A model generated the notes under the pieces. That model saw only the letters and a program-made list of their open reading frames with translations, was not told the DNA's origin and searched no databases. Positions 4,142-24,438 of a stretch of DNA of 25,696 nt are shown here, in pieces. The stretch lies in contig JASHOI010000392.1 in NCBI GenBank assembly GCA_030041195.1, positions 1-25,696 on the forward strand, written 5' to 3'. The DNA is from Streptosporangiaceae bacterium. Lineage in GTDB: Bacteria; Actinomycetota; Actinomycetes; Streptosporangiales; Streptosporangiaceae. Position 1 is the stretch's first letter. Every line of letters begins with the position of its first letter. The translations under genes were made by a program, and so were the position numbers.

Positions 4142-6079
4142 GTGACGGGCTCTGTCGCGGGCGCGCCGTCGGCCGCGGTCATGACTACTGTGGCCGCCGT
4201 CGGCGTCCAGCGCGCCGCATGGCTGCTGCTGGCCTTCCCGATAGCGGGAGCGATAATCCTGCTGCTCGCCGGGAAGCGCAGCAACTCCTGGGGACACCTG
4301 GTCGGCGTGGCCATGCCGGTCGCGAGCTTCGTGTACGGGGTGATCGCGTTCTTCGCGATGCTGAGCTACCCGGCCAGCCAGCGCAGCAGGGACCTGCACC
4401 TGTACTCCTGGATACCGGTGGCCGGGTTCAAGGTGAACATCGGCCTGCTGCTCGACCCGCTGTCGATCAGCTTCGTGCTGCTGATCACCGGGGTCGGCTC
4501 GCTGATCCACATCTTCGCTGTCGGCTACATGGCGAACGACCCCGAGCGGCGTCGCTTCTTCGGGTACATGAACCTGTTCGTGGCGGCGATGCTGCTGCTC
4601 GTCCTCGCCGACAACTACCTCGCCCTGTACGCGGGGTGGGAGGGCGTCGGCCTGGCCTCGTACCTGCTGATCGGGTTCTGGCAGTACAAGCCCGAGGCGG
4701 CAACCGCGGCGAAGAAGGCGTTCATCGCCAACAGGGTCGGCGACGCCGGCCTGTCCCTGGCCATCATGCTGATGTTCGCCCAGTTCGGCACCGTCACGTT
4801 CACGGGTGTGTTCGGCGCGGTGCACGGTGCCAGCAAGGGCGTGGTGACCGCGCTCGGCCTGCTGCTGCTGCTCGGGGCGTGCGGCAAGTCGGCCCAGCTG
4901 CCGTTGCAGTCCTGGCTGCTCGACGCCATGGAAGGCCCCACGCCGGTGTCGGCGCTCATCCACGCCGCGACCATGGTGACCGCCGGCGTCTACCTCATCG
5001 TCCGGTCCAACCCGATCTTCAACCTGACGCCGGACGCCCGGCTCGCCGTCGCCATCGTCGGCGCCGCTACGCTGCTGTTCGGAGCGATCATCGCGTGTGC
5101 GAAGGACGACATCAAGAAGTCCCTCGCCGGGTCCACGATGAGCCAGATCGGCTACATGTTCCTGGCGGCCGGGCTCGGCCCGGCCGGCTACGTGCTTGCG
5201 ATCGCCCAGCTGCTTGCGCACGGGTTCTTCAAGGCCACGCTGTTCCTGACCGCCGGGTCGGTGAAGCACGAGATGGACGACGAGGTGGACATGCGCCGGT
5301 TCGGCGGGCTCGGCGCGGTGATGCCCGTCACTTTCGGCGCGTTCATCTGCGGCTATCTCGCGATCATCGGCGTGCCGCCGTTCTCGGCTTTCTGGACCAA
5401 GGATCCGATCATCAGCGCGGCCTACGCCAAGGGCGGCACCTCTGGCGCGCTGCTTGGCACCGCCGCGCTGATAGGCGCCGGGCTCACCGCGTTCTACATG
5501 ACCCGGATGCTGCTGATGACCTTCACCGGAGAGCGCCGCTGGGACGACAAGGTGCACCCGCACGAGGCGCCGCCGGTCATGATCTGGCCGGCGATCCTGC
5601 TGGCCATCGGCTCGCTGGGAGCGGGCGCTTTCCTGATGATCGGCAGTCGGCTGCTCAACTTCCTCGCGCCGGTCACCGGCAGGCCGCCGTCCTCGCCTGG
5701 GCTGTTCACGCCGGCCGGGATCGGAGCGCTGGCGCTGCTGGTGGCCGCGGTCATCCTCGCCTGGGCCATGTACGGCCGGCGGCCGGTACCGGAAACCCCC
5801 CCGGTCGCGACGTTCCCGGTCACCGCGGCGCGCAAGGAGCTGTACGGCAACGCGATCAACGAGTCGCTGCTGATGCGCCCGGGCCAGTGGCTGACCCGGC
5901 TGTCGGTCTACTTCGACAACCGCGGCATCGATGGCCTGGTCAACACCCTGGCCGCCGCCATGGGCGGCACGTCGGGGCGGGTCCGCCGGGTGGAGAACGG
6001 GTTCGTCCGCTCGTACGCGTTGCTGATGTTCCTCGGCGCGGCGCTGCTCGTTGGCGCGCTGCTTCTGGTGAGGGTGTAG
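4142..6079 (+). CDS. nuoL: NADH-quinone oxidoreductase subunit L (antiporter-like)
   Basis: Distal proton-pumping, Mrp-antiporter-like subunit of complex I with the long lateral helix. The 645-residue product has the expected motifs in order: [36 protein letters not shown] with the conserved Glu, [31 protein letters not shown], and [19 protein letters not shown]-terminal hydrophobic segments consistent with the lateral helix and its anchor follow. A GTG start at 4142 is favoured because AAAGGG lies about 5 bases upstream. An ATG at 4181 is a weaker alternative. The stop is three bases before nuoM. Confidence 0.97.
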
Positions 6080-6082
6080 CCG

Positions 6083-7693
6083 ATGAGCTCATTTCCCTGG
6101 CTGACCGTTATCGGCGCGATCCCGCTGGCCGGCGCCATCGTGGTCGCGCTGACCCCGGGCCAGTCCGCGCCCGGCGGCGAGGCAGATCGCAGGGCACGCG
6201 CCCAGATGGTCAAGATCATCACGCTCGGCTTCACGCTGGTCACGCTCGCGGTGACGATCGCGATGGCGGTCCAGTTCAAGACCGGCGGGCCCGACTTCCA
6301 GTTCAACGAGACCTACCAGTGGATTCCGCAGTTCGGGGTGCACTACGCGGTCGGCGTGGACGGGATAGCGCTGGTCCTGCTGCTGATGACCGTGGTCCTC
6401 ATGCCGGTGGTCGTGCTCGCGTCGTGGAACGATGCCGAGGGCGGGTCCAACCCGGCCGGCGAGCCGCCGCCGCGGCGCAGCGTGAAGACGTACTTCGCGC
6501 TGATGCTGGTGCTCGAGACGATGATGATCGGTGTCTTCGCCGCCACCGACGTCTTCCTGTTCTACGTGTTCTTCGAGGCCATGCTGATCCCGATGTACTT
6601 CATGATCGGGAGCTACGGGGTCGGCCAGCGCCAGTACGCGGCGGTCAAGTTCCTGCTGTACAGCCTGTTCGGCGGGCTGCTCATGCTGGTCGCCGTGATC
6701 GCGCTGTACGTGTACTCGGCGCACAACGGCCACCCGGGCACGTTCCTGTTCAGCCAGCTTCTGCACACATCGCTGAGCACCACGACCCAGAAGTGGCTGT
6801 TCCTCGGCTTCTTCGTGGCGTTCGCGATCAAGGCGCCGCTGTGGCCGTTCCACACCTGGCTGCCCGACGCGGCCACCGCGGCACAGCCGGGGGCCGCCGT
6901 GGTGCTGGTCGGCGTGCTGGACAAGGTCGGCACGTTCGGCATGATCCGCTACTGCCTCGAGCTGTTCCCGGCGGGCGCGCACTACTTCACGCCGCTGGTC
7001 CTGGTGCTCTCGGTCGTCGGCATCCTGTACGGCGCGATCGTCGCGATCGGCCAGCGGGACCTGAAGCGGCTGATCGCCTACACCTCCGTATCCCACATGG
7101 GCCTGATCACGCTGGGAATCTTCGCGATGACCAGCGAGGGCCAGGCGGGCGGCGTCTTCTACATGGTGAACCACGCGTTCGCCACCGGGGCGCTGTTCAT
7201 CATCGCCGGGTTCATGATCGCGCGGCGGCGCTCGCAGATGATCGCCGATTACGGCGGGGTGCAGAAGGTGGCGCCGGTGCTCGCCGGGCTGTTCCTGATC
7301 GCGGGCCTGGCGGGCCTGTCCCTTCCCGGCCTCTCCACGTTCGTCAGCGAGTTCCTTGTCCTGGTCGGCACCTTCACCCGGTACGAGGTGTACGCGGTCC
7401 TGGCAACCGTCGGCATCATCCTGGCCGCGATCTACATCCTGTGGATGTACCAGCGGACGATGACCGGGCCGGTCCGCGACGAGGTCAAGGGCATGCCGGA
7501 CCTCAAGGCGCGCGAGCTGTGGGCGGTAGGCCCGCTGATCGCGCTGGTCGTCGTCCTCGGCGTGTACCCCAAGCCGGTGCTTGACATCATCAACCCCGCC
7601 GTCCACCAGACGCTGGTCCAGGTGCACTCGACCGACCCGGTGCCGCCGCATCCGGGGACTACCAGCGCGCTCACCCAGAGGAGCTCCCCGTGA
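6083..7693 (+). CDS. nuoM: NADH-quinone oxidoreductase subunit M (antiporter-like)
   Basis: Second antiporter-like proton-pumping subunit. The 536-residue product contains FYVFFEAMLIPMYFMIGSYG with the key conserved Glu of the family, AIKAPLWPFHTWLPDAATAA with the conserved Lys, and LKRLIAYTSVSHMGLITLGI, all diagnostic of NuoM. The start ATG follows the nuoL stop by three bases, with GAGGGTG just upstream inside the end of nuoL. The final roughly 25 residues are hydrophilic and precede the GTGA overlap with nuoN. Confidence 0.97.
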   Translation: MSSFPWLTVIGAIPLAGAIVVALTPGQSAPGGEADRRARAQMVKIITLGFTLVTLAVTIAMAVQFKTGGPDFQFNETYQWIPQFGVHYAVGVDGIALVLLLMTVVLMPVVVLASWNDAEGGSNPAGEPPPRRSVKTYFALMLVLETMMIGVFAATDVFLFYVFFEAMLIPMYFMIGSYGVGQRQYAAVKFLLYSLFGGLLMLVAVIALYVYSAHNGHPGTFLFSQLLHTSLSTTTQKWLFLGFFVAFAIKAPLWPFHTWLPDAATAAQPGAAVVLVGVLDKVGTFGMIRYCLELFPAGAHYFTPLVLVLSVVGILYGAIVAIGQRDLKRLIAYTSVSHMGLITLGIFAMTSEGQAGGVFYMVNHAFATGALFIIAGFMIARRRSQMIADYGGVQKVAPVLAGLFLIAGLAGLSLPGLSTFVSEFLVLVGTFTRYEVYAVLATVGIILAAIYILWMYQRTMTGPVRDEVKGMPDLKARELWAVGPLIALVVVLGVYPKPVLDIINPAVHQTLVQVHSTDPVPPHPGTTSALTQRSSP

Positions 7694-10499: not shown

Positions 10500-11336
10500 A
10501 TGAGAACCTCTGGCACGGCTGGGTCCACAGCGAAGGAATCGGCGCCGCTTCAGCCCCCGGAGATGGCCGTCAGGAACGGTGACTTCGTTCAGTCGCTGGA
10601 CCGCGGGCTGGCGGTGATCCGAGCGTTCGGGCCGGACCGAGAGCGGCTGACCCTGAGCGAGGTTGCCAACGCGACGGGACTGACCAGGGCGGCGGCACGC
10701 CGGTTCCTGCTGACCCTGGTCAAGCTCGGGTACGTGCGCAACGACGGCCGGGAGTTTTCGCTGCGGCCGCGGGTGCTCGAGCTCGGCTACGCCTACCTGT
10801 CGGGGCTGGCGCTGCCCGAGGTGGCGGCGCCGCACCTGGAGGAGCTCGTGGCCCGGCTGCATGAGTCCTCGTCGATCTCGGTTCTGGACGGTCACCAGAT
10901 CGTCTACGTGGCCCGCGTCCCCACCAAGCGGATCATGACCGTCGCGATCTCCGTGGGAACCCGGTTTCCCGCCTACGCCACGTCGATGGGGCGGGTGCTG
11001 CTCGCGGCGCTCACCGACGACGAGCTTGACCGCTACCTAGCCGAGGCCACATTCGAGCGGCTGACCGCCCGCACCGTCACCAACCCGGACCGGCTCCGGG
11101 CGATCGTCCGCGACGCGGCCCGGCACGGATACGCGATCGTGGACCAGGAACTCGAAGAGGGCCTGCGCGCGGTCGCCGCCCCGATCCGGGGCGCCGCAGG
11201 CGTCGGGACCGCGGCCATCAACGTGTCCGCGCACGCCAGCCGGGTGAGCATGGTCGCGATGCGGGGGAAGATCCTGCCCGCGCTGCTGGAGACCGCGCAC
11301 CAGATCGAGGACGACCTCAAGGCCCAGGCTCCATAA
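10500..11336 (+). CDS. IclR-family transcriptional regulator, PcaR/PobR-like
   Basis: DNA-binding regulator with an N-terminal winged helix-turn-helix (about residues 30-85, starting DFVQSLDRGLAVIRAFGP and including TLSEVANATGLTRAAARRFL) and a C-terminal effector-binding domain (about 100-275, with ISVGTRFPAYATSMGRVLLA). These stretches are characteristic of the PcaR/PcaU/PobR branch, which in other bacteria senses aromatic acids of the beta-ketoadipate route. No pca or pob gene is in this window. It converges with the liv-type importer, leaving 27 bases between the stops. The ATG at 10500 gives 278 residues and has AGG about 7 bases upstream. The target is unknown; itself and the importer are the nearest candidates. 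Confidence 0.88.
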   Translation: MRTSGTAGSTAKESAPLQPPEMAVRNGDFVQSLDRGLAVIRAFGPDRERLTLSEVANATGLTRAAARRFLLTLVKLGYVRNDGREFSLRPRVLELGYAYLSGLALPEVAAPHLEELVARLHESSSISVLDGHQIVYVARVPTKRIMTVAISVGTRFPAYATSMGRVLLAALTDDELDRYLAEATFERLTARTVTNPDRLRAIVRDAARHGYAIVDQELEEGLRAVAAPIRGAAGVGTAAINVSAHASRVSMVAMRGKILPALLETAHQIEDDLKAQAP

Positions 11337-11363
11337 CTTTGGGCCTTCGGCGCGCTTTGGCCG

Positions 11364-12437
11364 TTATCCCCTGGCGCGCCCGGGTATCAGCCTGCGGGCG
11401 CCGCCCGGGCCGGCGTCGCGCCCGGTCCGCAGCCAGTACCCGACGGGGAACAGCCGCAGGTTCAGGCGCTCGTCCACCAGGCCCCACAGCCCGCGGCGGG
11501 CGAACAGCGCCACGAGGATCGCGACCAGGCCCAGGATGATCAGGTACCAGGCGTTGTACGAGGCCAGCGTCTGCTGCAGCACCATGTAGACCGCGGTGCC
11601 GATGATCGGCCCCTCGATCGTGCCGAGCCCGCCGATGATGGTCGCGAACGCCATCTCCGCGGTCCACTGCACGCTGAAATCCGCGGTTGGCGAGACCTGA
11701 AGCTGGCTGATCGCCAGCACCGCGCCCGCGGCGCCGCAGCCGACGCCCGCCACCACGAACACCAGCATCCGGGCCAGGCCGACCCGCGCCCCGGAGCTGC
11801 GCGCGGCCACTTCGTCGTCGCGGATCGCGGTGAGCACCAGGCCGAGCCTGCTGCGCAGCAGCAGGTATACGGCGGCCAGCGCCAGCACCGTGACGGCCAG
11901 GCCCGCCCAGTAGGTGTACGCGGTGAGCAGCGTCGGGCTCATCCCGGTGAACCCGGGCAGCGGCATGCCGCTGCCGCCGCCGATCGAGGTGAACTTCTCG
12001 ATGACGAGCATGATGGTCGCGGCGAGCACCCAGGTGGCGATCGCGAAGTACCCGCTGCGCAGCCGGGAGACCAGCCACCACAGCGGCAGCGCCGCGACGC
12101 CGCAGACGATCGCGGCGACGGGCAGCGCGGCGAACGGCGAGAAGCCGTGGATGGCGAGGATCAGCACAAAGTACGCACCGAGCCCCAGAAATCCCTGCTG
12201 TCCCACCGACACCAGCCCCGCGTAGCCCGCGAGCAGGTTCCACATGCTCGCCAGCGTGAGCACGATGAACGCCTGCACCAGGATCGCTGTGGTGCCCGAG
12301 TACACGATGTACGGGAACATCGCGAACACGACAATGATGATCAGTGCTACCGCCCCGGTCCAGGCGACGTTCCTGCGCGACCGGGTGACCCTGAAGTTCC
12401 CGGCCGGCCGGACCGTGGTTTCGGTGACCAGGCTCAT
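11364..12437 (-). CDS. livM: Branched-chain-amino-acid-type ABC transporter permease, LivM-like
   Basis: One of the two inner-membrane permeases of a HAAT-family importer. The 357-residue product has about nine to ten hydrophobic segments and the LivM landmarks NLLAGYAGLVSVGQQGFLGL (about residue 60), the cytoplasmic coupling segment LVLTAIRDDEVAARSSG, and TIIGGLGTIEGPIIG. The ATG at 12437 is chosen because it overlaps the LivH stop (ATGA); the same frame is open much further upstream, but that part is a shadow of livH. It is the last gene of the importer operon. The substrate cannot be told from the permease alone. Confidence 0.93.
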   Translation of the reverse strand: MSLVTETTVRPAGNFRVTRSRRNVAWTGAVALIIIVVFAMFPYIVYSGTTAILVQAFIVLTLASMWNLLAGYAGLVSVGQQGFLGLGAYFVLILAIHGFSPFAALPVAAIVCGVAALPLWWLVSRLRSGYFAIATWVLAATIMLVIEKFTSIGGGSGMPLPGFTGMSPTLLTAYTYWAGLAVTVLALAAVYLLLRSRLGLVLTAIRDDEVAARSSGARVGLARMLVFVVAGVGCGAAGAVLAISQLQVSPTADFSVQWTAEMAFATIIGGLGTIEGPIIGTAVYMVLQQTLASYNAWYLIILGLVAILVALFARRGLWGLVDERLNLRLFPVGYWLRTGRDAGPGGARRLIPGRARG

Positions 12438-13309: not shown

Positions 13310-14100
13310 TACCCTTCGCTCCCTTCGCCGGGCTGGCCGGCCGGCGCGGCGCCAGCCAGGCCGAAGTATGCCGCCTCGACCTGGTCCGCCGTGACGTCGG
13401 CCGGCCTGCCCTCCAGGGTGGTCCGGCCCTCCAGCAGGCACTGGATTTGTGTTGCCACCCGCAGGGCCTGACTCACGTCCTGCTCAACCAGCAGCACGGT
13501 GAGGCCGCTCTGCAGGATCTGCGGCAGCATGCCGTAGATGCGCTGCACCACCACGGGCGCCAGGCCGAGAGACAGCTCGTCGAGCAGCAGCACGCGGGGG
13601 TTGGCGACCAGCGCGCGGCCGATCGCGACGGCCTGCTGCTCGCCGCCGGAAAGCTGGACGGTGGGCTGGTTGCGGCGTTCTCGCATCCAGCCGAACATCT
13701 CATAGACCTGCTCGATCGTCCACGGGCCAGGGCGCGCATACGTGGCGCCGACCTTGAGGTTCTCCTCGACGGACAGCGACCCGAACAGCCGCCTGCCCTC
13801 CGGCACCATAACGATCCCCTGGGTGGCCCGGCGCTCGGGCCGCAGCCCGGTCACGTCCTTGCCGTCGAACAGAATCGAGCCCGACGTCGGGTGGTGCAGG
13901 CCCGCGATCGTTCGCAGCAGCGTGGACTTGCCGGCGCCGTTCGCCCCGATGATCGCGTAGACCTCACCGGGGAACACCCGCAGCGAGATGGCGTCGAGCG
14001 CCCGAAGCTGCCCGTGGTACACGGTAAGGTCGCTGACCTCAAGCAATGGCACGCCGGTTTCCGGCCGCGCCCCATCCCCACTCGCCGCCGATGCGGTCAC
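13309..14100 (-). CDS. livF: ABC transporter ATP-binding protein, LivF-like
   Basis: Cytoplasmic ATPase powering the importer. The 263-residue product has Walker A GANGAGKST (52-60), a full signature LSGGEQQ (150-156), Walker B VLLLDE (170-175) and VPEGRRLF, a LivF hallmark. The GTG at 14100 overlaps the stop of the upstream ATPase gene (GTGA). The first about 16 residues are a low-complexity extension not needed for the fold. A later start is possible, but the overlap favours this one. Confidence 0.94.
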   Translation of the reverse strand: MTASAASGDGARPETGVPLLEVSDLTVYHGQLRALDAISLRVFPGEVYAIIGANGAGKSTLLRTIAGLHHPTSGSILFDGKDVTGLRPERRATQGIVMVPEGRRLFGSLSVEENLKVGATYARPGPWTIEQVYEMFGWMRERRNQPTVQLSGGEQQAVAIGRALVANPRVLLLDELSLGLAPVVVQRIYGMLPQILQSGLTVLLVEQDVSQALRVATQIQCLLEGRTTLEGRPADVTADQVEAAYFGLAGAAPAGQPGEGSEG

Positions 14101-14894
14101 GGCTCGCTCCGTTCCCCGTCCCCTTGCCCGGCCGGCGGAGCGTCCATCGTGCCGCCGGCCAGCGCCGCGGTGACCTCGGTGCCGAGGAACACCTCGCGAA
14201 CCGCCGGGTCGGCCAGCACCGTGGCGGGCTCGCCGTCGGCGACGAACTCGCCGCCGGACAGGCAGGTCAGCCGGCTCACCACGGCGGTGAGCGCGCGCAC
14301 CACGTGCTCGATCCAGATCACCGCGATGCCCTCGGCGTTGACGCCACGGACGATCTCGACCAGCTGGGCGACCTCGGGGTCGGTGAGGCCACCCGCCACC
14401 TCGTCGAGCAGCAGCAGCATCGGCTGCGTGGCCAGGGCCCTGGCCAGCTCCAGCCGCTTGCGCTGGAGCAGGCCGAGCCGTTCCGCTGGCAGGTTCGCGT
14501 GGGGTTCCATGCCGGTCTGGTCCAGCGCTCGCACCGCGGCCGCGTAGCTGGGCCGCCGGCGCAGCCCGCCGCCCTGTTGCGCGGCGACGAGCAGGTTCTC
14601 GAACACGGTCATATCGCCGAACGGCCGGGGCACCTGGTACGTGCGGCCGATGCCCAGCCTGCATCGTGCCGCCGCGTCCAGCTTGGTGACCGTCTGCCCG
14701 GCGAAGCGGATCTCACCGGCGTCCGGGGCAAGGTCGCCGGAGATGAGGCCGAACAGGCTGGTCTTGCCAGCACCGTTCGGCCCCACGATCCCGACGACGT
14801 CCCCGGGATCGACCGAGAATGACAGGTCCTCCGCGATGACGACCCGGCCGAACCGTTTCGTCACGTTGTCGAGCTCGAGCAGAGGTGTCGTCAT
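14097..14894 (-). CDS. livG: ABC transporter ATP-binding protein, LivG-like
   Basis: Partner ATPase of LivF. The 265-residue product has Walker A GPNGAGKTS (38-46), Walker B LLLLDE (160-165) and the switch histidine in WIEHVV (His197). The signature region reads RLGLLQRKRLELARAL, lacking canonical LSGGQ. That is common for LivG proteins, in which the paired LivF site is the canonical one, so I do not take it as inactivation. The C-terminal 25 residues are Gly/Pro/Glu-rich. It starts four bases downstream of the binding-protein gene stop, so translation is probably coupled. Confidence 0.94.
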   Translation of the reverse strand: MTTPLLELDNVTKRFGRVVIAEDLSFSVDPGDVVGIVGPNGAGKTSLFGLISGDLAPDAGEIRFAGQTVTKLDAAARCRLGIGRTYQVPRPFGDMTVFENLLVAAQQGGGLRRRPSYAAAVRALDQTGMEPHANLPAERLGLLQRKRLELARALATQPMLLLLDEVAGGLTDPEVAQLVEIVRGVNAEGIAVIWIEHVVRALTAVVSRLTCLSGGEFVADGEPATVLADPAVREVFLGTEVTAALAGGTMDAPPAGQGDGERSEP

Positions 14895-18900: not shown

Positions 18901-20658
18901 ATGACATCGCTAGCTGATCACCAGACCAACCAGTCCGGGCAGAACGGGCGAGGCGCGGAGGCCTCGACGATGACCGTCGGGGATTTCCTGCTCCGCCGGC
19001 TTCAGGAGGCCGGCCTCAGGCACCTGTTCGGTGTTCCCGGCGACTTCAACCTCGAGCTGTTGCAGCAGAACGAGGACGGTGGCTACCTGAAATGGGTCGG
19101 CACGTGCAATGAGCTGAACGCGTCCTACGCAGCCGATGGCTACGCGCGGCTGAACGGCATGGGCGCGCTGACCGTGACGAACGCGGTGGGCGCGCTGGGC
19201 GCGATCAACGGCATCGCTGGCGCTTTCGCCGAGCACGTCCCGGTGATCCTGATCGCTGGGTCGATACCGCTGCGGTCCATCCAGCGTGGCCTGGGAATGC
19301 ACCACACGACGGCCGATGGCACCTGGGACCGGTTCCTCGGCGCGTTCGCCCAGGTAACCGCCGGACAGGCCAGGCTGACGCCGCACAACGCGGCCACCGA
19401 GATCGACAGGCTGATCCTGACGGCCTGGCGGGAGAAGCTCCCGGTGTACATGGAACTGCCATCGGACGTCGCCTACCTCGACATCGAGGTCCCCACGGCC
19501 CGGCTGATGCTCGCCGACCCGCCCAGCGACCCGGAACGGCTCAGGTCGTGCGCTGGCGCGATCGCCGACCACTTGTCGAACGCCAAGTCGCCGGCGATCC
19601 TGGTCGATCGAGACGTCGAGCAATACGGTGCCGCGACGGAGGTCATGGGGCTGGCCGAGAAGCTGCAGATGCCGGTCGCGGTGACCGGGCCGGCCAAGGG
19701 AGTGATCGACGAGACGTTCCCGTATTTCGCGGGCGTCTACAACGGCAGGGCCAGCGCACCGCAGACCCGCGAGGCCGTCGAGGGCAGCGACTGCCTGCTG
19801 TCCATCGGCTACCGGCCGATCGACGGTACCTCGGGCGACTTCACCGCGTCGTTGCCCGCCGACACAATCCGCGCTCGCGGGCACTCGGTGGACATCGGCG
19901 AGGACAACTACCAGGCGGTGACGCTCAAGGAGGTCCTGCGTGCCGTCACCGACGCGGTCCCGCAGGTCACCAGCCGCGCCGCACATCCGTTCGCCGCGGC
20001 GATGCCCGCGGGCACCCACGCCGATGGCTCGGCCAAGCTGACCCAGGCCGCGTACTGGGAAACCATCCAGGGCTATCTGCGGCCGGGGGACGTGCTGCTC
20101 ACCGACAACGGGACGTCGTACGCCATCTTCGGTTTCCGGCTGCCGCCCAAGTGCACGGTGCTCGCGTCGGTCATCTGGGGCTCGATCGGCTACAGCGTCG
20201 GGGCGTTGCTGGGCACGCTGACCGCGGCACCGCAGCGCCGCCACCTGCTGTTCATCGGAGACGGCTCGTTCCAGGAGACCGCCCAGGAACTGTCGACCAT
20301 GCTGCGCAACGACTGCAAGCCGGTGATCTTCCTGATCAACAACGGCGGATACACGATCGAGCGCGGCTACATGGGCAAGACGGCGGACTACAACGACATC
20401 GCCAGATGGGCCTACTCCGAACTGCCGAAAGTGTTCCGTCCGGACACCACCGCGCGGTCGTTCGTGGTCAAGACCGTCGCGGATCTGGAAAATGCGCTTA
20501 GCGCGCCCAACGACAGCCTGGTGTTCATCGAGTCAGTCATGGATCCCTACGACGCTCCCGCCTCGGTAATTCACAGCAGCAACAACGGGGCCGAGCTCGA
20601 CTACGGTCCCCGCGGCCCGCAGCACCGCGGCAACGCCCAGCTCCTGCCGGCCACCTAG
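18901..20658 (+). CDS. Thiamine-diphosphate-dependent alpha-keto acid decarboxylase (pyruvate/indolepyruvate decarboxylase family)
   Basis: A 585-residue ThDP enzyme that non-oxidatively decarboxylates a 2-keto acid to an aldehyde. It shows CNELNASYAADGYAR with the cofactor-activating Glu71, the adjacent HH pair (His134-His135 in GMHHTTADG) that marks pyruvate/indolepyruvate/phenylpyruvate decarboxylases and is absent from acetolactate synthases, GDGSF (453-457) with NNGGYTIE (480-487) for Mg-ThDP, and the catalytic Glu487. All expected active residues are present. Substrate (pyruvate, indolepyruvate, phenylpyruvate or branched keto acids) cannot be fixed by eye. The ATG at 18901 has GGGGGAGG at 4-5 bases; a later ATG at 18970 lacks one. 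A strong hairpin terminator follows. Confidence 0.92.
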   Translation: MTSLADHQTNQSGQNGRGAEASTMTVGDFLLRRLQEAGLRHLFGVPGDFNLELLQQNEDGGYLKWVGTCNELNASYAADGYARLNGMGALTVTNAVGALGAINGIAGAFAEHVPVILIAGSIPLRSIQRGLGMHHTTADGTWDRFLGAFAQVTAGQARLTPHNAATEIDRLILTAWREKLPVYMELPSDVAYLDIEVPTARLMLADPPSDPERLRSCAGAIADHLSNAKSPAILVDRDVEQYGAATEVMGLAEKLQMPVAVTGPAKGVIDETFPYFAGVYNGRASAPQTREAVEGSDCLLSIGYRPIDGTSGDFTASLPADTIRARGHSVDIGEDNYQAVTLKEVLRAVTDAVPQVTSRAAHPFAAAMPAGTHADGSAKLTQAAYWETIQGYLRPGDVLLTDNGTSYAIFGFRLPPKCTVLASVIWGSIGYSVGALLGTLTAAPQRRHLLFIGDGSFQETAQELSTMLRNDCKPVIFLINNGGYTIERGYMGKTADYNDIARWAYSELPKVFRPDTTARSFVVKTVADLENALSAPNDSLVFIESVMDPYDAPASVIHSSNNGAELDYGPRGPQHRGNAQLLPAT

Positions 20659-20672
20659 GACGGCGCCCTGAC

Positions 20673-20709
20673 ACGGCCCCTCACGTGCGGAAACGCCGTG
20701 AGGGGCCGT
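20673..20709 (+). terminator. Hairpin terminator after the decarboxylase gene
   Basis: A perfect 13-base stem, ACGGCCCCTCACG (20673-20685) with CGTGAGGGGCCGT (20697-20709), is extended inside by GCG/CGC closing a GAAA tetraloop after one bulged base. There is no U-tract, as is usual for high-GC actinomycete terminators. It starts 14 bases after the stop codon and separates this gene from the RiPP-like operon. Confidence 0.85.
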
Positions 20710-20773
20710 TGCGCGCCGACGCGCTAGCGAGAATTGAGCCTGGCTATAGCATTCCGTAATCAACGCGCCAGTA

Positions 20774-20802
20774 TTGACAGTCATCATCGCTGGTATTAAA
20801 GT
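20774..20802 (+). promoter_or_regulatory. Candidate sigma-70-type promoter 1 of the RiPP-like operon
   Basis: A perfect -35 TTGACA (20774-20779), a 17-base spacer, then TAAAGT (20797-20802) as -10. It sits in an AT-rich island (20730-20910) that contrasts with the surrounding DNA. The predicted transcript start near 20809 is about 118 bases upstream of the chosen GTG of the E1-like gene. Confidence 0.5.
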
Positions 20803-20808
20803 GCCTGG

Positions 20809-20838
20809 TTGGCGGCTCAGGGCAATTAACGTTATGAT
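20809..20838 (+). promoter_or_regulatory. Candidate sigma-70-type promoter 2 of the RiPP-like operon
   Basis: TTGGCG (20809-20814), an 18-base spacer and TATGAT (20833-20838), the latter one base from consensus. It lies directly downstream of promoter 1 in the same AT-rich island, so one or both may be used. Confidence 0.42.
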
Positions 20839-20926
20839 CACGCGAATGGCGTCGGTGGTCATTCGGTCTGCATTTCTTTACGAATACATTGCGCACCGGC
20901 CCGTTATGAGTTCGGGAGGTATTCTG

Positions 20927-22051
20927 GTGGACCAGGATCCTCCGGTACCTATGCTCAGGCCACGAGTGAAGCCGGAGCACGCGCCGTACCGCATTGCCGG
21001 GGGCAAGATCCGCATCGGCGGGGTGTCTTTCCGGCTCGCCGCGGAGATCTCCGACCCGGATGGATGGGTGTGGACGATGCTGTCCGCGATGGACGGCAGC
21101 CGCGCGTTACCGGAAATCATCGAGCACGTGCGTGCGGCACATCCGGCGCAGGCTGTCGATGTCCTGCGGCGCGGTGCCGTGCAGCTGCTCGGCACCGGCT
21201 ACGTGGAGGACGTCGCGGGGCCGGTGCCGGCCGGGCTCACGGAGCGCGACATGCGCCGGCACGACCGAGCGGTTGGCTACTTCCGGTGGATGGATCTCAC
21301 CCCGCGGGCCAGTTCCTGGGAGCCGCAGGCCCGGCTCCGGGACGCGCGGGTCACGATTCTCGGCATGGGCGGGACGGGTGGCGTTGCCGCGCTGGCGCTG
21401 GCCGCGAGCGGTGTCGGGCACCTGCACTGCGTCGATCCCGACGAGGTCGAGCTGTCCAACCTCAGCCGGCAGATCCTCTACACCGAGCACGATATCGGGA
21501 AGCCGAAGGCCGATTCCGCGGTCAGCCGGCTCCAGCTACTGAACGCCGACGTTGAGGTGACCGGCCAGCGCACGGAGGCGACCGGGATCGAGGACGTGCT
21601 GGAGCTGGCGCGGGATTGCGACGTCCTGTTGCTCAGCGCCGACCGGCCGCCGGAGCTGCGGGTCTGGTGCAATCGGGCCTGCCTGGCCGCCAAGCGCCCG
21701 TGGGTCGACGCCGGATATCACGGCCCGCTGGTTCAGACCGGAGTCTTCGTTCCCGGCGAAGGGCGATGCTGGGAATGCACCAGGCTCGCGCTTCGCGACG
21801 GTCATGCCAAGGAGGGCGCCTACCCGGACGACGCACCCCATCGGCGTGAAGCGGTCTTCAGCGCGGTCGGGGCCGTTCCGGCGGGTATCTCTGGTTACCT
21901 CGGCGCCCATCTGGTCATTTCGCTGCTGACCGGCATACCGCCGGTTGTCCCAGGCCGGATCGAAACGGTGAACCTCGCCGCGCCCGACGCGCCACTTGTG
22001 CTCGATGACCGGCCGCACCCTGAGTGCGAAGCCTGCGGCGCGGCGCGGTAA
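20927..22051 (+). CDS. E1/ThiF-like adenylating enzyme with N-terminal PqqD-like (RRE-type) domain, putative RiPP maturase
   Basis: A 374-residue two-part protein. Residues about 18-97 (YRIAGGKIRIGG to GTGYVEDV) look like the small winged-helix PqqD-like fold that binds RiPP leader peptides. Residues about 135-374 are an E1/ThiF domain: GMGGTGG (146-152) nucleotide loop, Asp170 after the second strand, SNLSRQILY with Arg181-Gln182, GKPKADSA (191-198), and four zinc cysteines as CWEC (281-284) and CEAC (367-370). So ATP binding and adenylation look intact, unlike the inactive E1 parts of many azoline cyclodehydratases. Known relatives act on peptide C-termini (MccB, ThiF) or present leaders to YcaO; no YcaO is here. 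GTG at 20927 follows GGGAGG by 7 bases; earlier in-frame ATGs fall inside the promoter region. Confidence 0.85.
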   Translation: MDQDPPVPMLRPRVKPEHAPYRIAGGKIRIGGVSFRLAAEISDPDGWVWTMLSAMDGSRALPEIIEHVRAAHPAQAVDVLRRGAVQLLGTGYVEDVAGPVPAGLTERDMRRHDRAVGYFRWMDLTPRASSWEPQARLRDARVTILGMGGTGGVAALALAASGVGHLHCVDPDEVELSNLSRQILYTEHDIGKPKADSAVSRLQLLNADVEVTGQRTEATGIEDVLELARDCDVLLLSADRPPELRVWCNRACLAAKRPWVDAGYHGPLVQTGVFVPGEGRCWECTRLALRDGHAKEGAYPDDAPHRREAVFSAVGAVPAGISGYLGAHLVISLLTGIPPVVPGRIETVNLAAPDAPLVLDDRPHPECEACGAAR

Positions 22052-22065
22052 GAGGCGGCGGGCAC

Positions 22066-23460
22066 GTGGCGGTCGAGGAAACTGCGGCAGCCGCCCGCGT
22101 GACGGGCGGATCGACGGTGCGGCTCCGCCCGTTGAGCCAGCGCCTTGGCGGGGACGGCTGGGTGCTCGGCCGGATCGAGACCGGCGATTTCATCACCGTG
22201 CCCGAAGTGGCGCACCGCGTCATCACGCTGCTCGGCGACGGCCGCACCGTCGACGACGTCGCGGGCAGGCTCCTGGCCGAGACCGGGACGAGCTTCGCGG
22301 TCTCGGACTTCGTGACGGCGCTCGATGAGCTCGGGTTCGTCGCCGCCGTCGATGACGAAGTCCGGGACGATAAAGCACGCCCCCGGCCCAGCCTGCCCTG
22401 GCTGCGGCCCGGGCACGTGCGCTGGCTGACGCATCCGCTCGTAGCGGTCGTGGTGGCGGGCTTCGCGGTAGCGACCGTGGTCATGCTGGCGCTGCACCCA
22501 GCACTGCTCCCGAGTTCCCGCGTGCTCGTCTGGAGCCGGCGGGCCGGCCTGGTGCTCGCCGTCAACGCGGCGATCGCCTGGACGATCATCCTGGTTCATG
22601 AACTCGCCCACCTGGCCACGGCCCGGGCGGCTGGCGCGCCTGCCCGGATCACCGTCGGCACCCGGCTGCAATTCCTTGCCGCCCAGACCGACGTGAGCGG
22701 TGTCTGGGCTGCGCCGCGCCGCACCCGGATGACCGTGTACCTGGCCGGAATGGGCATCGATATCTGCGGTGCCGGGACCTGCTTGCTCATCGTCGGGCTG
22801 GCCGATCCGCATGGCCTGGCCCGTGATCTGCTCGCGGTGGCAGCCACCGAGATACTTCTCGGACTGCTCGCTCAGTTCATGATCTTCATGCGCACCGACG
22901 TCTACTTCGTGCTCCAGGACCTGACTGGGTGCGCCAACCTTTACGCGGACGGCTCGGCGTATCTTCGCTACCTCGCCGGGCGGGCCACCCGGCGCATCAG
23001 ACACGCGGGCGGCGCGGGCGCGGACCCGAGCCGCGAGTACCCGGCGTCGCAGCGCCGTGCGATTCGTCTTTACAGCGTCCTGCTGCTCGCCGGGACCGCC
23101 ATCTGCTTGGGCATTGAATTTGCGGTGTCATTGCCCGCTCTGATCACGCTGGTCGGCCACGCGGTGTCCGAGATCGGCACCACCCCTGTGGGAACTGCCG
23201 ACGGCGGAGTGGCTCTGGCCATTCTGCTCGGCTTCCAATTCGTCTGGGTCAGCCGCTGGCGTCACCGTCATGAGCATCAGGTGCGATCAATAGCCAGACA
23301 GTACCTGCGGACGCGAAGGGAGGTGAGTGGGCATCGCCGACATCTTCGAGACGTCAGATGGCCAATCCGTAGGGCCCGCCGAGGACACAGTCACCGGGCC
23401 GATCGTCATCCGCAAGCTGAACCGGCTCGAGGCGAGACACACGAGCTACGCCACCAGTAG
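22066..23460 (+). CDS. Membrane metalloprotease (M50/YydH-like) with N-terminal PqqD-like domain, putative RiPP leader peptidase
   Basis: A 464-residue protein. Residues about 18-95 (VRLRPLSQRLGG through LDELGFVAAV) resemble a PqqD-like/RRE winged helix. A polytopic membrane part follows, with hydrophobic segments near 123-145, 160-177, 224-246, 254-276, 333-363 and 380-397. HELAH (178-182) at the end of the second segment is the HExxH zinc site, and RTDVYFVLQDLTGCANLYAD (276-295) supplies the probable third ligand Asp278, the M50 arrangement seen in RiPP-linked proteases. GTG at 22066 has AGAGGCGG upstream; GTG at 22024, overlapping the previous gene by 28 bases, is an alternative. The last about 45 residues are Arg/His-rich and are read out of frame over peptide gene 1, so they may not be functional. 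Confidence 0.82.
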   Translation: MAVEETAAAARVTGGSTVRLRPLSQRLGGDGWVLGRIETGDFITVPEVAHRVITLLGDGRTVDDVAGRLLAETGTSFAVSDFVTALDELGFVAAVDDEVRDDKARPRPSLPWLRPGHVRWLTHPLVAVVVAGFAVATVVMLALHPALLPSSRVLVWSRRAGLVLAVNAAIAWTIILVHELAHLATARAAGAPARITVGTRLQFLAAQTDVSGVWAAPRRTRMTVYLAGMGIDICGAGTCLLIVGLADPHGLARDLLAVAATEILLGLLAQFMIFMRTDVYFVLQDLTGCANLYADGSAYLRYLAGRATRRIRHAGGAGADPSREYPASQRRAIRLYSVLLLAGTAICLGIEFAVSLPALITLVGHAVSEIGTTPVGTADGGVALAILLGFQFVWVSRWRHRHEHQVRSIARQYLRTRREVSGHRRHLRDVRWPIRRARRGHSHRADRHPQAEPARGETHELRHQ

Positions 23461-23464
23461 CTGA
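23327..23464 (+). CDS. Putative RiPP precursor peptide 1 (45 aa)
   Basis: A short gene encoding 45 residues that end in ARHTSYATSS. It carries the block PIVIRKLNRLEARHTS (residues 25-40), matching peptides 2 and 3 at the conserved positions PI-IRKL-RLE--HTS. The N-terminal half (acidic, Asp/Glu/Thr-rich) differs from the other two. Start: an in-frame TGA at 23324 makes GTG 23327 the first possible codon. AAGGGAGGTGA directly abuts it, leaving only 3 bases after GGAGG. The spot homologous to the ATG of the other copies is ATC, codon 3. All but the last four bases lie inside the 3' end of the protease gene in a different frame. Conservation of the block makes it real in my view, but start and translation efficiency are uncertain. 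Confidence 0.7.
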   Translation: MGIADIFETSDGQSVGPAEDTVTGPIVIRKLNRLEARHTSYATSS

Positions 23465-23515
23465 CCCCGTGCGGACGCAGGGACCGGACGTTCACCGGGA
23501 AAGGAGGTGAAGCGC

Positions 23516-23644
23516 ATGGAGACCAAGCCGTCAGCCCGGAAGGACGAGCAGATCGTGCCGAAGGACGACAGCCCGCAGCCGATCAGCATCCGCAAGCTGG
23601 ACCGGCTCGAGACCACACACACGAGCCAGGGCACCAGTAACTAG
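23516..23644 (+). CDS. Putative RiPP precursor peptide 2 (42 aa)
   Basis: A 42-residue peptide beginning METKPSARKDEQIV and ending HTSQGTSN. The N-terminal half is charged (Lys, Asp, Glu), the sort of sequence expected for a leader read by an RRE domain. Then comes the block PISIRKLDRLETTHTS (residues 22-37), identical to peptide 3, and a five-residue tail QGTSN ending in Asn. It has a near-perfect ribosome site AAAGGAGGTGA (23500-23510), 8 bases from GGAGG to ATG, suggesting strong expression as expected for a precursor. It lies 51 bases after peptide 1. There is no cysteine, so lanthionine and sactionine chemistry are excluded. Confidence 0.82.
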   Translation: METKPSARKDEQIVPKDDSPQPISIRKLDRLETTHTSQGTSN

Positions 23645-23768
23645 GGAGGTGAAGGGCATGGAGATCCGGCCGTCGCCGCGGAAGGAGCAGCAGATCGTGG
23701 CGAAGGACGACAGCCCGGAGCCGATCAGCATCCGCAAGCTGGACCGGCTCGAGACCACACACACGAGC
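23577..23768 (+). repeat. Tandem duplication carrying peptide genes 2 and 3
   Basis: A 50-base stretch at 23577-23626 recurs without change at 23719-23768, 142 bases on. It covers the conserved peptide block. Ribosome sites and upstream codons are also alike, while the tails after HTS diverge, so the copies arose by gene duplication followed by change of the C-terminal end. A less similar third copy is at 23402-23446 in peptide 1. Confidence 0.9.
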
Positions 23769-23789
23769 ACCGGCGGCAACGGCGGCTGA
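23658..23789 (+). CDS. Putative RiPP precursor peptide 3 (43 aa)
   Basis: A 43-residue peptide beginning MEIRPSPRKEQQIV and ending HTSTGGNGG. It matches peptide 2 over most of its length (shared KDDSP, PISIRKLDRLETTHTS at 22-37) but its tail TGGNGG is different and Gly-rich, ending in GG, the end that E1 enzymes adenylate in ThiS/MoaD proteins. It is far too short for a ubiquitin-like fold, so the likeness may be superficial. The ribosome site GGGAGGTGA with an 8-base spacing begins at the last base of the peptide 2 stop. The gene ends 9 bases before the closing terminator hairpin. No cysteine. Confidence 0.82.
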   Translation: MEIRPSPRKEQQIVAKDDSPEPISIRKLDRLETTHTSTGGNGG

Positions 23790-23798
23790 GTGCACCGT

Positions 23799-23828
23799 GC
23801 CGGGCCGGCGGGCGACCGCCGGCCCGGC
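23799..23828. terminator. Bidirectional hairpin terminator closing the RiPP-like operon
   Basis: A perfect 13-base GC stem, GCCGGGCCGGCGG (23799-23811) and CCGCCGGCCCGGC (23816-23828), with a GCGA tetraloop. It begins 9 bases after peptide 3 and lies between two convergent genes (the next gene ends at 23857 on the - strand), so it probably stops transcripts from both sides. Confidence 0.88.
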
Positions 23829-23856
23829 GACCCGGTCGGCCGGGCAGGCCGCGGCG

Positions 23857-24438
23857 CTACGACGACGATCCGTCCACCGAGCCCCCGGCACCGTGATCGT
23901 GGCGCCGGACGAGCGCCGTGACCTCGCCCGTGAAGGTGATTGACGGGCCGCCGATCAGTTCCCACGCGCGGGCGATCCCGATCAGGAAGCAGACGATCAC
24001 CATGCTCGCGATCGTGTTCACCGAGCCCGAGTTGCCAGGCTGCGCGAGCACCTCGGCCGCCTGCGATAGCTGCACCACGAACGTGACCGCCAGAAAGAGC
24101 AGGAACAGCGTGTCACGCAGCACGGCCCGGCGCATCTGGTGCCGCCGGATCAGCGACAGCAGCGCTGCCACGACGAACACGAGCCCGAGAATCGCCGCGA
24201 CCAGCGCGGCCGGCCCGATCTTGTGCCCGGGGATCAGCGAGAACAGCGACACCACCAGCGCGTTGGTGAAAGCCGTGAGCGCCGCCGCGGCGCGGATGCG
24301 GTGCACCTGCTGTGCCCGTTCCTCTTCCTGGGCGAGCCGCCCGGCCGCCACCGAGATGGCCACGAACAGCAGCCCGATCAGCGCGCCAGCCACACTGGCG
24401 CTCGCCACAAAGAAGTCATGGATGCTCTCAGGGACCAC
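23857..24438 (-). CDS. Small polytopic membrane protein, function unknown
   Basis: A 193-residue protein with about five hydrophobic segments (about 9-33, 52-71, 76-97, 109-127, 140-158), a charged stretch after the first (RLAQEEERAQQVHRIRA) and a polar His/Gly/Ser-rich C-terminus. I do not recognise a family. The GTG at 24438 is favoured since GAGGAT lies about 6-10 bases upstream. It is convergent with the RiPP-like operon and shares its terminator region, so it is not in that operon. An immunity or resistance role is only a guess from proximity. The opposite strand is also open here, but its product is Thr/Ser/Arg-rich without membrane or family logic. Confidence 0.75.
   Translation of the reverse strand: MVPESIHDFFVASASVAGALIGLLFVAISVAAGRLAQEEERAQQVHRIRAAAALTAFTNALVVSLFSLIPGHKIGPAALVAAILGLVFVVAALLSLIRRHQMRRAVLRDTLFLLFLAVTFVVQLSQAAEVLAQPGNSGSVNTIASMVIVCFLIGIARAWELIGGPSITFTGEVTALVRRHDHGAGGSVDGSSS

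Follow-up and report, generated by a model that had tools for sequence, protein, structure and literature searches.

A Candidate RiPP Operon with an RRE-Bearing E1/ThiF-Like Enzyme and an RRE-Bearing Membrane Protease in Actinobacteria

What kind of product could be made by an operon that consists of two enzymes and three very small peptides? This question is raised by a locus of a Streptosporangiaceae bacterium (GenBank assembly GCA_030041195.1, contig JASHOI010000392.1), which we analyzed as a window of 25,696 nucleotides. An initial annotation of this DNA had proposed five open reading frames (ORFs), all of which are found in the window: an E1/ThiF-like adenylyltransferase and an M50-type membrane metalloprotease, each with a predicted N-terminal recognition element (RRE) of the kind known from ribosomally synthesized and post-translationally modified peptides (RiPPs), and three related peptides of 42 to 45 residues. 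The RiPP-like reading given in that annotation is supported. Very likely, the operon makes a RiPP of the kind that depends on a ThiF-like adenylyltransferase, with an RRE-M50 protease of its own for the leader; the chemistry, cleavage, and role that we propose are inferred from homology and conservation patterns. Relatives of the trio of precursor, E1-RRE, and M50-RRE in many actinobacteria point to an uncharacterized family of modified peptides.

Conservation of the Precursor and the Two Enzymes

Related loci were collected by a scan with the protease alignment, with one genome per species, and the best 80 of 92 loci were kept; the co-occurrence counts thus refer to loci chosen through the protease. 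An E1 match lies on the same strand upstream of the M50 gene in 79/80 loci, from overlapping to 963 bases apart, and is partial in L059, L060, and L063. With starts picked by rule, a 4-base overlap joins the two genes in 40 of these 79 loci. A precursor profile was derived in three iterations from 20 seed fragments (16 from 14 loci, three from the window, and P0123), so that the window's own peptides are among the seeds of the profile that scores them. At E<1e-3, the profile recovered 92 peptides in 76/80 loci, each at 1.5 kb or less from the enzyme pair, and a shuffled control gave no match among 25,705 segments. A precursor was recovered in 62/66 loci that had contributed no seed, some of the peptides being near-identical to seeds. 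No profile precursor was found in L052 (which has no E1), L059 (at a contig end), L062, and L063; the L062 precursor was picked up by pattern. The 92 precursors lie upstream on the opposite strand (56), upstream on the same strand (14), between the two enzyme genes (11), or downstream (11). The trio is conserved and the gene order is not, and these several positions relative to the pair make the link more than mere synteny. The three short peptides of the initial annotation are therefore more than chance ORFs, and such peptides co-occur with the enzyme pair in other genomes.

Among the window's copies, the divergent peptide 1 is supported by a metagenomic relative with a common N-terminus (P0127, MADIFQTPD...KLDRLETTHTS). 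Besides peptides 2 and 3, a search with peptide 2 returned five relatives outside the window, all with ISIRKLDRLETTH(Q/T)S; peptide 3 is 74% identical to peptide 2 (P0122). The NCBIfam scan placed the window peptides in no family. For 31 Streptomyces-type precursors (23 distinct DNAs), the ratio of non-synonymous to synonymous polymorphism (pN/pS) is 0.28 overall, 0.08 in the leader part, and 0.45 in the core part.

Could the peptides instead be regulators or scaffolds of another process, with the E1 and M50 enzymes acting on other substrates? The pair does occur in varied surroundings with no obvious larger cluster, annotated plasmid records showing a ThiF-family gene and a hypothetical or site-2 protease gene amid unrelated neighbors, and no exporter is family-wide. 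The joint presence of all three components in the 76 loci and the strong conservation of the leader argue against such a role, which we consider improbable.

In wider genome sets, each counted with its center included, the protease was found in 3/396 genomes of the phylum (one of which, L095, has no E1), in 3/292 genomes of the cyanobacterial phylum (one of which, L097, has no E1), and in 9/101 Streptomyces-family genomes; these counts are lower bounds because no more than 4 to 17 candidates were scored in each genome. The Streptomyces-family genomes provide 10 places, six with E1 (L088, L094, and L098 to L101) and four without (L102 to L105). Among the E1-bearing loci, the precursor profile reached L098 and L101 and, weakly, L099, and it found no precursor in L094 and L100; L088 is a short excerpt from the L066 genome, which has a precursor. 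Two genomes that the genome tool places in the cyanobacterial phylum also have the trio, namely, L075 (the L091 genome) and L096, with the peptides IQIRKLEKLETTASRGGPR and IKIRRMEKLETPAGSYNNRSYGYFVFTS.

Distant RRE-M50 relatives with no E1 in the stretch retrieved also adjoin short peptides, all on the minus strand (L095, 2822-2989; L097, 2730-2942; L103, 2733-2900). These have similar leaders (PIRKAGSIRLT..., TVRKAGSVRLT...SCWPF, and QVREVETVKTT...GWPF) and weak profile scores. The occurrence of E1-less relatives beside leader-like peptides suggests that RRE-M50 proteases may serve several RiPP-like systems.

The Two Enzymes

A profile of 39 E1 sequences matched PaaA (5ff5) at 1e-48 over profile positions 4 to 227 and MccB (3h5n) at 2.6e-48 over the catalytic part. 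Besides the ThiF domain, Pfam weakly indicated a PaaA-like domain at the N-terminus, at 0.0023 and below its cut-off. The AlphaFold2 model, built from a 36-row alignment, has a pLDDT of 92.7 and a pTM of 0.92; Foldseek aligned it with MccB over 366 to 379 columns (E down to 4.6e-26, TM-score of ~0.8 by target length) and with PaaA at 1.4e-21. PaaA is thus the top sequence match and MccB the best structural match. Invariant in 36 E1 sequences are GxGGxG, D172, N178, R181, Q182, K194, D232, D239, C281, C284, and C367, and the spacings R181-K194 (13) and K194-D239 (45) equal those of the essential EnfB residues Arg167-Lys180-Asp225 (PMC12250964). Given the invariance of ATP- and zinc-site residues, the EnfB-like spacing, and the homology to PaaA and MccB, the E1 is very probably a working adenylating enzyme and not a docking relic. 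In eight Streptomyces loci (L043, L055, L060, L065, L068, L077, L078, and L080) the E1 similarity is split in two pieces, perhaps by an insertion ahead of the ADRP motif.

The docking alternative would place the locus in a pathway of the linear azole or thiopeptide type, the E1-like protein serving only to dock a YcaO encoded elsewhere. Such ThiF docking domains are known in YcaO systems (PMC12150305), and 6 of the 10 trio genomes examined for it, all other than the window's own, have a YcaO somewhere; the remaining four have none (L001, L010, L047, and L066). To survey the neighborhood, genes were called crudely in the 80 loci and grouped, giving 37 families present in at least five loci. Two of these are E1 and M50, three are antisense overlaps (artefacts), and for the remaining 32, representatives were run against Pfam, three of them having no match at 1e-5. 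YcaO, radical S-adenosylmethionine (SAM) enzymes, lanthipeptide synthetases, and ATP-grasp enzymes are all absent from the scanned recurrent families. Since 4 of the 10 genomes have no YcaO, and with the adenylation and zinc residues retained, docking appears highly improbable. An RRE-E1 with intact ATP- and metal-site residues beside a conserved precursor, in genomes of which some are YcaO-free, fits the ThiF-like RiPP kind.

A PqqD-like or RRE N-terminal domain had been proposed for each enzyme, and both are indicated, strongly in the E1 and more weakly in the protease. The protease has an HExxH motif, and Pfam gave PF05402 (PqqD) at 5e-4 and PF02163 at 0.033, both under cut-offs; an NCBIfam scan gave nothing above cut-off, and the protease profile matched no solved structure by sequence. 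Its structural model is poor overall (pLDDT 65.2) and better in the first 100 residues. The best Protein Data Bank matches of the model are the leader-bound lasso-peptide B1 RREs 6jx3 and 5v1v (TM-scores of 0.76 and 0.69 by target length), so that an RRE is likely present in the N-terminus. D278 of RTDxYF is nearly invariant across 21 protease sequences. Among 7,998 candidates scored, 503 homologues reached E≤1e-3, of which the best 120 were listed; many protease homologues bear the Joint Genome Institute (JGI) name "putative peptide zinc metalloprotease protein." The frame in the window is ~30 codons longer than in several close relatives, which end near residue 430, and it overlaps peptide 1 in another frame.

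Precursor Consensus and Candidate Chemistry

Sixty-four distinct precursors were aligned from the first Ile; the pattern used required Arg/Lys and Leu, and all 95 peptides matched it. The consensus is I-x-I-R-x-L-D-K-x-E-T-T-x-x-(S/C)-tail; a Streptomyces 25-mer reads MANKIEIRPLDKKETTGDSGGNGGS. The Asp position holds Asp in 57, Glu in 6, and Asn in 1 of the 64, and the Glu position holds Glu in 61, Gln in 2, and Asp in 1; the two Thr residues that follow are present in 58/64 and 61/64. The initial annotation described the peptides as free of cysteine, which is true of the window's three and not of the family, since some relatives have Cys where most have Ser.

For the part after the Glu, 64 distinct tails were drawn from the 64 precursors and six more. 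Ser or Cys stands at Glu+5 in 50/64 tails, versus 17.4 expected by tail shuffling (maximum of 33 in 20,000 shuffles). Of the 15 Cys-bearing tails, 12 have their first Cys at Glu+5 or +6, and the distance from Cys to the C-terminus ranges from 0 to 10. The C-terminal residue of the 64 precursors is itself variable (N 15, S 14, G 13, A 11, and Thr 5). The swap of Ser and Cys at one position suggests a nucleophile, and the variable C-terminal residue together with the variable distance from Cys to the end favors a Glu-to-Ser/Cys closure over C-terminal activation. The most likely chemistry, put forward tentatively, is that the conserved Glu is adenylated and closed onto the Ser or Cys usually five residues on. 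Two relatives outside the tail count, L096 and L098, carry Ser at +5. A ubiquitin-like reading with a C-terminal Gly-Gly was rejected, as only 6/64 precursors end in GG.

Two other chemistries have to be weighed. Like MccB, EnfB, and IndF, the E1 could adenylate the C-terminal carboxylate, after which Thr, Ser, Cys, or another nucleophile would close a C-terminal ring or the nucleotide would stay attached. The best structural match, MccB, and a tail after E-T-T of 8 or 9 residues in 51/64 distinct tails are in line with this. The last residue, however, is not conserved, unlike the Asn of microcin C, and Cys keeps no constant distance from the end; we regard C-terminal activation as possible, if somewhat less likely than the Glu-to-Ser/Cys closure. 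In a pantocin-like reaction, the activated Glu would condense with a neighboring backbone or side chain to give a small bicycle or imide at E-T-T, the tail being a follower. PaaA matches from the N-terminus onward, and the internal conserved acid with a tail after it resembles PaaP (PMC12250964). An EamA transporter, the family of PaaC, also occurs in 11/80 loci, but in varying places with housekeeping neighbors and in one streptomycete group. The precursors have no Glu-Glu-Asn core, and no 2-oxoglutarate (2OG) oxygenase is among the recurrent neighbor families, which makes this reaction unlikely.

Several observations weigh against Glu-to-Ser/Cys closure and, more broadly, against the proposed pathway. 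With Gln or Asp in place of the conserved Glu in three precursors, Glu activation cannot cover all of them unless another acid serves. Fourteen of the 64 tails have no Ser/Cys at Glu+5; L099, L101, and L062 place it at +7 or +8, and L084 has Arg at Glu+5, so that ring size would vary. The tails share descent, and the shuffle test therefore overstates their independence. The length from the first Ile to the end is 20 or 21 residues in 53/64 precursors, a narrow range that also fits C-terminal activation. Copies 2 and 3 in the window differ without a purifying signal (2.5 synonymous changes per 25 sites and 7.5 non-synonymous changes per 86 sites). The matches of the protease RRE have Foldseek E values of only 0.1 and 0.14 (probability of 1.00), with none at E≤0.001. 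Finally, the EamA genes of the 11 loci, which lie on either side of the pair at a median distance of 2.4 kb, mean that the lack of an exporter, noted in the initial annotation for this set, is not absolute in the family. No exporter or further modifying enzyme recurs family-wide in the 80 loci.

In the proposed pathway, the three precursor peptides would first be made and bound by the E1 RRE through the conserved I-x-I-R-x-L segment. By analogy with MccB and PaaA, the E1 would then adenylate a core carboxylate, the most likely target being the Glu side chain of E-T-T, and attack by the Ser or Cys usually five residues on would give a macrolactone or thiolactone. The RRE-M50 membrane protease would bind the same leader, cleave it off at the membrane, and possibly let the product out; this would account for the lack of a family-wide exporter. 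It is tempting to assume, though only as a tentative proposal, a distinct and unnamed actinobacterial RiPP class with cyanobacterial outliers, defined by this macrolactone or thiolactone on a hydrophilic E-T-T-x-x-S/C core and by an RRE-guided membrane protease that frees and releases the product. That the core keeps one outline from streptomycetes through to Micromonospora and Microbispora would fit a peptide with a signaling or physiological role better than a fast-changing antibiotic.

In short, this soil actinobacterium carries a tiny gene set for three short peptides, an enzyme of the kind that uses ATP to activate a peptide acid, and a protease in the membrane by which the peptide is probably trimmed. 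The family is compact, with a precursor and two enzymes seen together in 76 sequenced loci, and it offers a directly testable substrate-enzyme pair. It may also represent RiPP maturation without a dedicated exporter, by way of an RRE-bearing M50 protease.

The Locus, Its Surroundings, and Known Systems

The five-gene unit lies between a thiamine-pyrophosphate (TPP) enzyme gene and a convergent gene (Table 1). Two strong hairpins had been noted around the unit, and RNA folding confirms both; the three terminator-like sites listed for 20600-23950 include neither of them. The E1 start proposed at TTG 20774 proved wrong, that TTG being part of the TTGACA of a promoter-like site, and the GTG at 20927, which has GGGAGG shortly 5' of it, is the most likely start. 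Two promoter-like sites were found in the region versus a mean of 0.3 in shuffles.

Table 1. Features of the operon and its borders in the window (gene starts corrected)
Feature	Position	Strand	Evidence
TPP enzyme gene (left neighbor)	18901..20658		Pfam TPP domains
Upstream hairpin, gap between TPP-enzyme gene and operon	20655..20725	+	RNA fold -46.1 kcal/mol, z -5.61, 0/200 shuffles equal it
Promoter-like site TTGACA-17-TAAAGT	20774..20802	+	consensus match only
E1/ThiF-like adenylyltransferase with fused RRE, 374 aa, GTG start	20927..22051	+	ThiF PF00899 4e-45
RRE of E1, ~residues 8-98, approximate limits	20948..21220	+	PaaA profile alignment; MccB structural alignment
RRE-fused M50-type membrane metalloprotease, 464 aa in frame	22066..23460	+	
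RRE of protease, ~residues 16-96, approximate limits	22111..22353	+	PqqD PF05402 5e-4; lasso B1 RRE matches
HELAH zinc motif of protease	22597..22611	+	H178, E179, H182 invariant (21 sequences)
Precursor peptide 1, 45 aa, GTG start, divergent copy IVIRKLNRLEARHTSYATSS	23327..23464	+	precursor profile E 1.6e-4 (was seed)
Precursor peptide 2, 42 aa, ATG start, AAAGGAGGTGA site	23516..23644	+	precursor profile E 3.1e-6 (was seed)
Precursor peptide 3, 43 aa, ATG start, GGGAGGTGA site	23658..23789	+	precursor profile E 1e-6 (was seed)
Downstream hairpin, past peptide 3	23785..23860	+	RNA fold -54.1 kcal/mol, z -2.43, 6/200 shuffles equal it
Convergent gene (right neighbor)	23857..24438	-	Pfam/NCBIfam: nothing above cut-off

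Among the other recurrent neighbors, only three families (M14-like, DUF6879, and a short-chain dehydrogenase) lie close to the pair. A gene for an M14 carboxypeptidase-like protein directly follows the divergent precursor in 36 loci of the streptomycete type (e.g., L006, 7135-8424 on the minus strand, and 35 similar loci). Three such genes were scanned, two of them scoring above the M14 cut-off and one having no M14 match; the enzyme could trim the Gly/Ser/Asn tail. A DUF6879 gene is found in 15 loci (4/19 genes scanned, all above cut-off) and never in one locus with the M14-like gene. It stands beside the set in, e.g., L003 (11343-12023, plus strand) and L010 (9370-9984, plus strand), its hosts being Verrucosispora, Microtetraspora, Microbispora, Sphaerisporangium, and some Streptomyces loci. 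By eye, no M14, DUF6879, or EamA gene is seen among the ORFs of the window.

The streptomycete group with EamA also has an M1 aminopeptidase (12 loci, median of 1.7 kb) and an aspartate-semialdehyde dehydrogenase, and a convergent short-chain dehydrogenase lies near the pair in seven loci of one streptomycete group. L038 provides an example of the EamA, short-chain dehydrogenase, and M1 aminopeptidase surroundings (13539-14501, minus strand; 11201-12082, minus strand; 4381-6960, plus strand). This EamA/M1/dehydrogenase context probably reflects shared chromosomal surroundings. An ABC ATPase family (seven loci, median of 4.6 kb) and a subtilase (eight loci, median of 1.9 kb) were also found.

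The initial annotation missed that the fusion of an RRE to an active E1/ThiF domain already characterizes a group made up of microcin C, pantocin, GRC, enterofaecin, and ind, five cases in which ThiF-like RiPP enzymes perform varied chemistry (PMC12250964, PMC12150305). One of these studies filtered 27,400 RRE-ThiF fusions and has further unexplored groups in its Figure S1 (PMC12150305); the E1 enzymes described here may already be, uncharacterized, inside its network or those groups. The word Streptomyces does not occur in the review text on ThiF-like RiPP enzymes. Supplementary material aside, the literature searched contained no description of E1-RRE and M50-RRE with this precursor and no characterized pathway that owns the enzyme pair, and a motif search of the literature returned no paper. 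The initial annotation's view that the make-up matches no described RiPP class thus stands for the combination, but the RRE-E1 fusion itself already marks a known group.

Pantocin A (PaaP/PaaA/PaaB/PaaC) is similar in its RRE-E1/ThiF enzyme, the top sequence match, and in a conserved internal Glu followed by a tail. It differs in its Glu-Glu-Asn core (0/64 precursors here) and its 2OG oxygenase (PaaB); here an RRE-M50 protease is present, and EamA is confined to a minority of loci outside the window's set. Microcin C7 (MccA/MccB/MccC) shares an RRE-like peptide clamp with an adenylating domain, but the precursors here are longer, with a leader, and no exporter is family-wide. Membership in microcin C was rejected on the C-termini, Asn being last in only 15/64 distinct precursors.

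The streptococcal GRC system (GrcA-F) also uses a ThiF-like enzyme, and GrcB closes Glu35-Cys39 (PMC12250964), a precedent for side-chain closure of Glu onto Cys, as proposed here for Ser or Cys. The family described here, in contrast, is actinobacterial, its proposed nucleophile is not C-terminal, radical SAM is absent from its recurrent neighbors, and 0/64 precursors end in Cys (L093, outside the set, does). Enterofaecin (EnfA/EnfB) and ind (IndA/IndF/IndP) have an RRE-ThiF enzyme, the EnfA leader (V/I)RKA resembles (I/V)RKL, and ind has a protease and a core that begins with EDTT. No WWIVI or NWYFI core is found here, 0/64 precursors contain Trp (L084, outside the set, has one), and the protease is M50-type, not M16 as in ind.

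On the protease side, the initial annotation did not take account of daptides, in which PF02163 peptidases fused to an RRE are known (PMC10036551). M50-type proteases occur in daptides, epipeptides, and pearlins. Daptides resemble the family in that an M50-type peptidase with a probable RRE is present here, its PF02163 and PqqD matches being under cut-offs; neither the window ORFs nor the recurrent neighbor families include their aminotransferase, decarboxylase/dehydrogenase, or methyltransferase, and their conserved C-terminal Thr is absent here (5/64). Epipeptides and pearlins differ in their modifying enzymes, which are radical SAM and PEARL enzymes, respectively, and are similar in that EpeP and TglG/TmoG are membrane M50 proteases acting on a RiPP precursor. 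For EpeP, a role in both cleavage and export is assumed (PMC10885120). For each of microcin C, pantocin, GRC, enterofaecin/ind, and daptides, the operon family lacks features that define the system. The kind of enzyme is known, and the combination and the precursor family are new; this is a new family within a known kind and not a new principle.

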